A DNA stretch of 29,723 bases from a virus: positions 1 through 29,723 of the IMG/VR virus record IMGVR_UViG_3300046167_000094, one strand, 5' to 3'. The position numbers and the translations under genes are program-made. The notes under the pieces are model-generated. The model made no database searches and was not told the origin of the DNA. It saw only the letters and a list, made by a program, of their open reading frames with translations. Position 1 is the first letter of the stretch. Each line of letters starts with the position of its first letter. Below, piece by piece: positions 2,740 to 5,439 of this stretch.

Positions 2740-3273
2740 TTAATATTTAGGTATATAGTAAAATAATTTTTCAATATTTTTAAGTTGGTTGTTTTTTATT
2801 TCGTAAGTATCTGTTTTCATTTTGAAAGTTGTTCCGTTTGAACGCGTACGCTTGACGCCTTTTTTATATAACACCGCTAATTTTAATAATTCTTTTTTTC
2901 TTAAAAACCCGCAAATGGTCAATTCATTAGATTGTTTGTTTAGTGAACAAAAAATATAAATATCGCAATCGAATTGTTTTTGATGCGCCACGAAATTATT
3001 TACAAAATAATCCTTTACGTCAACGTTTCGGCCCATTGTCTTGACGTCAATTTTAAATCCTTTGTACTGAAAATCAAAACCACCGTCAAACCCTTTTTTA
3101 AATTCGTGATCAAAACCAAATAAACGTTTGACCATTATTTCGCCTACTAATCCAACAAATTGTTGCTCTTTATTGCCGTTACCCTCAAAACGATTTCCAA
3201 TGTTATTTTCGTTTAAAAACGTCCACACGTCGTTTTTTAATTGTTTCGGTATGTTATATTTTCTATTTAACAT
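2740..3273 (-). CDS. Putative PD-(D/E)XK-type nuclease
   Basis: 177 residues. The core looks like a restriction-endonuclease fold: a Glu in GLVGEIMVKRLFG (about residues 43-55), then GFDGGFDFQYKGFKIDVKT (about 62-80), giving the Asp and the D-x-K pair. A beta-rich and basic C-terminus follows. Possible jobs are Holliday-junction or single-strand cleavage in replication and recombination, or host DNA degradation. Its start overlaps the preceding replication gene by 11 bases. The family assignment rests on motif reading only. Confidence 0.55.
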   Translation of the reverse strand: MLNRKYNIPKQLKNDVWTFLNENNIGNRFEGNGNKEQQFVGLVGEIMVKRLFGFDHEFKKGFDGGFDFQYKGFKIDVKTMGRNVDVKDYFVNNFVAHQKQFDCDIYIFCSLNKQSNELTICGFLRKKELLKLAVLYKKGVKRTRSNGTTFKMKTDTYEIKNNQLKNIEKLFYYIPKY

Positions 3274-4177
3274 TCAAAACGTATTGTTTTAATTCTTGAA
3301 ACTCGTTTGTCATCATCAAACCACGAATTTGGAATTCATGAATATCACCATTTTTAGTTTTTGCGCCTATTTCTTTTTGACCGCTTGCCGGATTTCGATA
3401 TACAAAAAATTCTTTTAACCCTTTTATTTTTTGATAGCCAACCGGTTTTTGTTTTGCCTTGTGCTGAACCATAAAACGGTCAATGTATTTAATTCCGTTT
3501 TTGTCGGTGTTTCTTAATTTAAGAATTGATAAAAAATTGTTTTGCCAAAATTCGTCATTCCTTAATTCTTTTGAAACATTGTAAACCTCGCGTAAATTAT
3601 AGCCATCTAAACGTTCAATTTTATCTAAACAATCCAACCATTTGTTTTTTTGTGCCTCTGTTTTAGGTCTATATTTTAAAGGAAATAATGATGCAAAATG
3701 CGAAAACGCCTTTGTTGTTTTTTCTGAATATTGGCGCTTTTTCGATTTTGTAGGTATTTCTTTATTTAGTATTTCTTTATTATATATATTACTATATATA
3801 TTATTATTAGTATTACTTTGTTGCGGATTTACCGCAGCGGTAAAAACCGCGACGGTTTTGTCGGCATCGGTTTTTCCGTTTGCGGTGTCGTTTAAATGAT
3901 AATTGTACCCTGCGAATTTCCCGCCTTTGCGAACCTCAACGCGTACCAAAAAACCCGCTTCGATTAATTCTTTAATCCTTTTGTTTATGGCGTCTTTACC
4001 CTCTTTAAAATGCCCGCAAATAAATGAAACTGTCATTTCTGTTTTTGAATCGTGCGAAAAAAGCCAACAATATAAACCCGTTGCCGTTGCTGAAATACCT
4101 TTGTGGCGAAATATAGCATTCGGAACAACTGTAAAGCGTTCAAATTTTTTCGGTTTGTAAATCTTATTGTATTCCAT
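3263..4177 (-). CDS. Helix-turn-helix replication-initiation-like protein
   Basis: 304 residues. The first 110 residues form a winged helix typical of phage replication proteins: FTVVPNAIFRHKGISATATG, then GKDAINKRIKELIEAGFL. A low-complexity Asn-rich linker (SNTNNNIYSNIYNKE, near residues 121-136) separates it from a basic C-terminal region (residues 145-300), the layout of DnaD/gpO-like initiators that bind the origin and load the helicase. It sits upstream of primase-helicase in one run of overlapping genes. Its transcript appears to begin at a promoter near 4264-4295 with a terminator-like hairpin between promoter and start. Confidence 0.65.
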   Translation of the reverse strand: MEYNKIYKPKKFERFTVVPNAIFRHKGISATATGLYCWLFSHDSKTEMTVSFICGHFKEGKDAINKRIKELIEAGFLVRVEVRKGGKFAGYNYHLNDTANGKTDADKTVAVFTAAVNPQQSNTNNNIYSNIYNKEILNKEIPTKSKKRQYSEKTTKAFSHFASLFPLKYRPKTEAQKNKWLDCLDKIERLDGYNLREVYNVSKELRNDEFWQNNFLSILKLRNTDKNGIKYIDRFMVQHKAKQKPVGYQKIKGLKEFFVYRNPASGQKEIGAKTKNGDIHEFQIRGLMMTNEFQELKQYVLNVK

Positions 4178-4183
4178 ATATAA

Positions 4184-4231
4184 AAAATAACCCTATCAAA
4201 TCGGCGGTCGCGGTCGCTTCATCAATAGGGT
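4184..4231 (-). terminator. Terminator-like hairpin in the leader of the replication gene
   Basis: On the minus-strand RNA, ACCCUAUUGA (4231-4222) pairs with UUGAUAGGGU (4199-4190) over 10 base pairs including two G-U pairs. The loop is about 22 bases and GC-rich, and a U-rich tail UAUUUUUU follows. It lies between a good promoter (4264-4295) and the gene start at 4177, so it could attenuate the operon or end a roughly 75-base RNA. The first arm overlaps the stop codon of a 12-codon mini-ORF. Confidence 0.5.
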
Positions 4232-4260
4232 ATTGAAAATTTTTTAATGCCGCGACGCAT
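4222..4260 (-). CDS. Candidate leaderless leader peptide (12 residues)
   Basis: ATG at 4258-4260 opens MRRGIKKFSIPY and stops at TGA 4222-4224. The ATG follows the promoter -7 box by three bases, the same geometry as the terminase small subunit and the cassette nuclease, which suggests a leaderless transcript. The last three codons lie in the first arm of the downstream hairpin, so a ribosome here would block it. A second mini-ORF (MKRPRPPI) starts in a TGATG overlap and runs through the loop. Coding status is inferred only from layout. Confidence 0.3.
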   Translation of the reverse strand: MRRGIKKFSIPY

Positions 4261-4263
4261 AAA

Positions 4264-4295
4264 GCAAAAATAATTAATTATTTCACAAAATCAAA
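4264..4295 (-). promoter_or_regulatory. Bacteroidota-type promoter, TTTG-N19-TATTTTTGC
   Basis: Minus strand TTTG (4295-4292), 19 bases, then TATTTTTG (4272-4265) followed by C. This matches the -33/-7 consensus (TTG/TTTG about 19 bases from TAnnTTTG) better than any other site in the window. It overlaps the 3' end of the upstream small gene and points at the replication-gene leader. Confidence 0.6.
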
Positions 4296-4528
4296 TTATA
4301 TTTTATGTCGTCACAAAAGGAACGCAGTTCGTCGAATATCTTTTTTAACTGATCTAAAGGAATTTCGCCATCCTCGTATTTGTACCATAGTAATTCAATT
4401 AATAAGTCGAATTCAACACGCGTTGATTTGCCTACATATTCATAAGTGACCGCTAAATTATCCGGCGATGATTGTGTGAAACGGATTTTTTGATTTTCCG
4501 CGTCAAAGTAAACTGTGTGATATTTCAT
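4283..4528 (-). CDS. Hypothetical protein
   Basis: 81 residues, acidic and aromatic (MKYHTVYFDAENQKIRFTQ at the start, ELLWYKYEDGE in the middle). No catalytic or membrane motif is seen. It shares an ATGA four-base overlap with the VRR-NUC gene ahead of it, so the two are probably translationally coupled. Its 3' end contains the -33 element of the next promoter. Confidence 0.6.
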   Translation of the reverse strand: MKYHTVYFDAENQKIRFTQSSPDNLAVTYEYVGKSTRVEFDLLIELLWYKYEDGEIPLDQLKKIFDELRSFCDDIKYNLIL

Positions 4529-5058: not shown

Positions 5059-5439
5059 TTATATCCTTTTTAATTTTTTTATTTCGTTTCTTAAAATATC
5101 GTTTTCAATAACTAAATTATTATATTTATACAACATTGATTCCGGCGTTAATTTTTCCGCTTTGAAATCTGACAATATTTGAATTTTTAAACTTTCAAAC
5201 TCTGACTTAAAAAATTCGTCAAACCTCAACCAATCGTTAAAATTTCTCAAACCATAAACAACCGACGCATGATCACGTCCGACGGCCGCACCGATTTTTT
5301 TAACTGATTTTTTACTGACGTGCTTTGCAAGCCAAAAGTATGCACCCCGCGCCATAACAATATCACGTTCGCGGGTGTTTGTTGTTATGTCACATTCAAA
5401 ATGTTTATTTACTTTTTTTACTAAATATTCTAATTTCAT
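5059..5439 (-). CDS. DnaA domain-IV-like DNA-binding protein
   Basis: 126 residues. Residues 22-67 match the DNA-binding domain IV of bacterial DnaA: RERDIVMARGAYFWLAKH followed by KKIGAAVGRDHASVVYGLRN, which keeps the GRDHxxV signature that reads DnaA boxes. DnaA's AAA+ ATPase domain is absent. The C-terminal third is a charged helix that may form a coiled coil (NNLVIENDILRNEIKKLKRI). It may bind the phage origin or compete for host DnaA boxes. It lies between the exonuclease and VRR-NUC genes. Confidence 0.75.
   Translation of the reverse strand: MKLEYLVKKVNKHFECDITTNTRERDIVMARGAYFWLAKHVSKKSVKKIGAAVGRDHASVVYGLRNFNDWLRFDEFFKSEFESLKIQILSDFKAEKLTPESMLYKYNNLVIENDILRNEIKKLKRI

Follow-up and report, generated by a model that had tools for sequence, protein, structure and literature searches.

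What controls the replication initiator gene of a phage in which the rep start codon lies directly behind a promoter, a terminator-like hairpin and two very short reading frames? The locus lies in IMG/VR virus record IMGVR_UViG_3300046167_000094, analysed here as a single stretch of 29,723 nt (the window), and all parts of the element before rep are on its minus strand. A preliminary description had recognised the promoter, a 12-codon mini-ORF and the terminator hairpin, all of which are present before rep on that strand, together with a second mini-ORF. The features of the locus are as follows.

4265..4295, minus strand: promoter, with a -33 TTTG at 4295-4292, a spacer of 19 nt (N19) and the -7 box TATTTTTG at 4272-4265; predicted +1 at A4260
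4247..4260, minus strand: hairpin 1, stem AUGC/GCAU, with the loop-loop segment GUCGCGG at 4256-4250
4232..4246, minus strand: A/U-rich single-stranded linker (13-19 nt in homologues)
4190..4231, minus strand: hairpin 2, the predicted terminator, with stem 4231-4222/4199-4190, internal loop UGAA/CGAU (possible tandem G.A), upper stem GCG/CGC at 4217-4215/4206-4204 and loop A-CCGCGAC at 4214-4207
4207..4213, minus strand: terminator loop CCGCGAC, complementary to GUCGCGG at 4256-4250, predicted to form a kissing-loop (pseudoknot) helix
4182..4190, minus strand: U tail UUAUUUUUU, U-rich in all homologues
4222..4260, minus strand: mini-ORF 1, MRRGIKKFSIPY and stop, 12 codons with ATG at 4260, ending in the 5' terminator arm ACCCTATTGA
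4197..4223 (approximate), minus strand: mini-ORF 2, MKRPRPPI and stop, starting in a TGATG overlap
3263..4177, minus strand: rep, replication initiator (HTH_36; phage O-like and DnaD-like families)
3831..3886, minus strand: four iteron-like units of the ACCGnnnCGGT type at 3886, 3871, 3856 and 3841, with 15-bp spacing, inside rep
3802..4264, minus strand: exchange cassette comprising the RNA element, the rep N-terminal domain and the iterons

Distribution of the element and its promoter

Homologues were collected by searching with rep and with two DNA patterns, which yielded the element in 39 viral contigs representing 24 distinct sequences after removal of four chance matches to the patterns (L101, L104, L108 and L110), in which the fold was absent. 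The whole layout was kept across these 24 homologues, and in every contig checked the element was situated directly before rep and was not found elsewhere. No additional sites or partial copies emerged from three more patterns built on other parts of the element. A covariance search of loci with reps 47-58% identical or N-terminally swapped returned only chance-level hits and no element. The window had no match to Rfam 15 covariance models at the gathering score and only chance-level matches (E 2-10) at a permissive threshold. Among phage records the element had no credible match and rep only distant ones, metagenome-assembled genomes (MAGs) gave only weak matches to the element near chance level, and a search of 397 genomes of one flavobacterial family, which had no positive control, did not recover it. 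The element would represent a new compact RNA family from uncultured phages in many samples. Its carriers are probably marine and flavobacterial, a host assignment inferred from the promoter type and one MAG contig rather than an isolate. Contigs filed under a Woesearchaeota MAG (L123) and a Rhodobiaceae MAG (L124) also carried phage rep genes of this family, and their placement in those MAGs is probably a binning error.

The strict promoter pattern TTTG-N19-TAnnTTTG matched once on both strands of the window, where about 0.6 matches were expected from second-order Markov sequences. The promoter of the preliminary description is supported by a -7 box recognisable in 23 of the 24 homologues (the exception being L021). 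Only near relatives of the window had the -33 TTTG, which in these loci lies partly within the end of the preceding gene. The -7 box of Flavobacterium johnsoniae, TAHHTTTG, is found at -12 to -5 (PMC6847099), and leaderless mRNAs are a minority class, amounting to 5.5% in F. psychrophilum (PMC9723704). Four bases separate the -7 box TATTTTTG from the ATG at 4260. The +1 predicted for each homologue from the F. johnsoniae spacing was the outermost base of hairpin 1 in 14 of 23 cases and lay no more than 1 nt from it in 19 of 23, which is consistent with hairpin 1 forming the start of the RNA. A gene for an 81-aa protein at 4283-4528 (minus strand), without Pfam or PHROG match, lies immediately before rep and occupies the same place in relatives that lack the element.

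Two hairpins predicted to pair through their loops

Hairpin 2 has the G-C stem and following U tract of an intrinsic terminator, and the stem and U tail were among the most constant parts of the element in the alignment. Its folding energy was unremarkable (z = -1.1; 30 of 200 shuffles folded as well), so its significance derives from conservation and covariation rather than from energy. Hairpin 1, which on its own is weak in the window (3-4 bp), and its pairing with the terminator loop had gone unnoticed in the preliminary description. Both loops are 8 nt long, N-GUYGNGG in hairpin 1 and N-CCNCRAC in hairpin 2, and their 7-base complementarity was kept in 24 of 24 homologues. Across the alignment of these sequences (A3), 97.9% of structure cells were paired, with 27 double-change cells compared with 5.4 in shuffles, and double changes occurred at all four stem pairs of hairpin 1. 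In controls with slid partners pairing fell to 31-57%; as the structure was read off the same 24 sequences, part of the excess over these controls is expected, and more weight belongs to the covarying columns.

The loop-loop helix taken alone had 100% of its cells paired across the 24 sequences and 12 double-change cells, a value reached by none of 500 shuffles. Its variable pairs were of the types C-G/U-A and C-G/U-A/A-U/U-G. On the rep tree, one of these pairs changed three times and the other four to five times, a count that recombination may blur, and coupled changes also separated the sister pairs L018/L020 and L013/L014. The terminator stem kept U.G and G.U pairs that would be A-C mismatches on the opposite strand, and since such pairs fit one strand only, the strand of the element is the structured one. 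A kissing-loop fold is therefore well supported by covariation, although loop complementarity and compensatory changes in sequence would look alike for an intramolecular and an intermolecular helix, and the element very probably acts as a functional structured RNA. The loop-loop pairing was compatible with the terminator stem, and folds of successive prefixes showed only transient alternatives; as the helix leaves the stem intact, no clear anti-terminator switch is visible.

Loop-loop helices between two hairpins are known from purine riboswitches and from RNAI/RNAII of ColE1. The element shares this helix with them; unlike in those RNAs, one of its two loops is that of an intrinsic terminator, and it has neither a known ligand or aptamer core nor a match in Rfam.

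An exchange cassette with the initiator's DNA-binding domain

The iterons occupy the centre of rep. An alternative rep type carries CCTATTGAAGAAAA units, and in more distant reps this position is taken by other repeats. In lambda, the origin lies inside gene O (PMC6022878), and the repeats within rep probably mark a lambda-O-like origin. The window and two relatives, L025 and L034, shared about 96% identity between 7500 and 4265 and about 93% from 3801 on. Between these regions, 4264-3802 was replaced in the relatives by another N-terminal domain, with the start codon directly after the same promoter, and the breakpoint fell exactly at the end of the promoter's -7 box. In these element-less phages the same promoter would drive an almost leaderless rep.

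Among complete reps, 37 of the window's N-terminal type were accompanied by the element and 32 more distant ones of this type (<60% identity) were without it, whereas of 26 with the other N-terminal type only L087 had it; these counts are not unbiased, because the element itself had served to find some of the loci. In the subset of loci recovered by the rep search only, with C-terminal parts 60% or more identical, the split between element and N-terminal type was complete. On this pattern, the element moves between phages as one unit with the N-terminal DNA-binding domain of the initiator. Such exchange with nearly identical element-less phages constitutes a natural experiment that makes the role of the element directly testable. 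Further upstream in the same early gene cluster, at 5059-5439 (minus strand), lies a gene for a small phage protein with a DnaA C-terminal DNA-binding domain (PF08299).

Probable control of rep by a self-terminating leader

The short RNA before rep probably sets the amount of rep product, and we lean towards transcription attenuation in cis as its main role. The promoter would give rise to a structured, non-coding and self-terminating leader of about 78 nt, starting at A4260 and ending near 4182; an RNA of about 75 bases had been offered as a secondary option in the preliminary description, a reading that the analysis supports. Hairpin 1 would lie at the 5' end or immediately beside it, and with the loop of this hairpin paired over 7 bases to that of the terminator, the RNA is predicted to adopt a compact kissing-loop form. 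The interval separating the terminator from the rep ATG is too short to hold another promoter, and transcripts must therefore read through the terminator. Judging from this anatomy, read-through from the element's own promoter and from upstream early promoters would feed rep and the genes behind it, and the attenuator would limit initiator synthesis in cis with an efficiency dependent on the loop-loop pairing. A terminator loop held by a second hairpin would stand at the control point of replication initiation. Position before rep is no proof of action in cis, as phage gene order is conserved anyway.

Plasmid rep genes of the pT181/pIP501 type are attenuated by an antisense RNA that acts on a terminator in the leader of the initiator gene. 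The element is likewise a terminator in an initiator leader, but the partner of its loop lies within the same RNA. The -7 boxes of a possible promoter reading back over the leader occurred in a minority of homologues and at no conserved place; with no conserved antisense promoter behind the element, an antisense control RNA of the pT181 type was rejected.

An additional effect of the short RNA on replication, exerted in trans, is possible. That a trans-acting small RNA is the actual product, directed at replication or at another mRNA, with rep expressed mainly by read-through from upstream, is in our judgement rather unlikely. Such a role would suit an RNA with its own promoter, a compact covarying fold and a terminator, and in L087 the element precedes a rep with the other N-terminal domain. 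By analogy, the closest known counterpart in position and size is lambda OOP (pO-oop-tO beside O and ori), a self-terminating transcript (about 77 nt) required for an inhibition of replication (PMC3349717). Like OOP, the element by its sequence encodes a short self-terminating RNA from a dedicated promoter and adjoins an O-type initiator gene with iterons. OOP, however, runs against O and is antisense to cII, whereas the element is sense to rep, intergenic and overlaps no gene; moreover, it has a second hairpin with loop-loop pairing, and the two share no demonstrated sequence relation. We did not file the element as a member of the OOP family because orientation and target differ. Against action in trans, no target was found, and the element never occurred away from rep, nor in the 397 flavobacterial-family genomes (the search lacking a positive control).

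Alternatively, the loop sequences might be Rep-binding half-sites in DNA, part of an operator or of the origin, with RNA structure secondary, which we consider unlikely. The element travels with a DNA-binding domain, and rep contains ACCGnnnCGGT iterons at 15-bp spacing, and in most loci the hairpin-2 loop ACCGCGACCGC ranked with the best matches to them outside the iterons themselves (frequency in shuffles 0.013, or 0.11 if only the 7 loop bases were shuffled). In addition, the linker and 5' terminator arm AAAAAATTTTCAATACCCTATTGATGAA (4219-4246, minus strand) are similar to the iteron found in the alternative rep type, a likeness equalled by 0 of 1,431 random segments in a post hoc comparison. 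Both iteron comparisons were post hoc and one is weak, and we treat them as leads only. Five homologues (L012, L014, L017, L018 and L087), however, have lost the iteron-invariant G, and in these a second change keeps the loop-loop complementarity; a pure DNA operator is disfavoured by loop changes that break the iteron match in this way. The covarying stems of hairpin 1 and the G.U pairs that fit only one strand also argue against it, as do the variable spacing between the sites and the retention of the stem in L022 and L023, which have no match to the alternative iteron. Also unlikely is a reading in which the loop-loop helix reproduces the origin iteron in RNA form, such that the initiator or its alternative allele would recognise the RNA, or the RNA would pair with iterons in rep mRNA or origin DNA. 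If true, the phage would gauge or restrain the activity of its initiator by means of an RNA that imitates the phage origin and is swapped together with the matching DNA-binding domain.

A simple insulating terminator without regulatory role, with hairpin 1 conserved incidentally, is highly improbable: the constancy of the terminator stem and U tail speaks for it, but such a terminator would shut off the phage's rep together with the replication genes downstream, and would leave hairpin 1 and the covarying loop-loop helix unexplained.

The preliminary description had favoured an attenuator coupled to translation of a leaderless mini-ORF 1, whose last codons enter the first arm of the hairpin. 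Leader-peptide attenuators of the trp type likewise combine a promoter, a short ORF and a terminator before an operon; unlike in these, the short ORF here was not conserved and no mutually exclusive anti-terminator was seen. The hairpin, whose conservation had been proposed as a check, was kept in the 24 homologues, whereas a mini-ORF 1 with the required frame and a stop in or near the terminator arm was limited to six of them, the window and five near relatives, three of which six start with TTG. Among the 24, the start was ATG, TTG or absent. In L003, with a rep 98% identical, a one-base indel in the linker shifts the frame, and in L018, L020 and L021 the ORF stops after 3 codons. Translation coupling, fitting those six and contradicted by loss of start codon, frame, length or stop in the other 18, is barely credible, and neither mini-ORF would play a part in the attenuation proposed here. 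On the comparison of homologues, both were rejected as coding. Mini-ORF 2 kept its ATG and was open in most homologues, with amino acid changes at codons 2, 5, 6 and 7. Its changes fell at amino-acid-changing and silent positions alike, a pattern attributable to RNA pairing as its conserved letters were the pairing ones, and it is probably a by-product of the RNA sequence.
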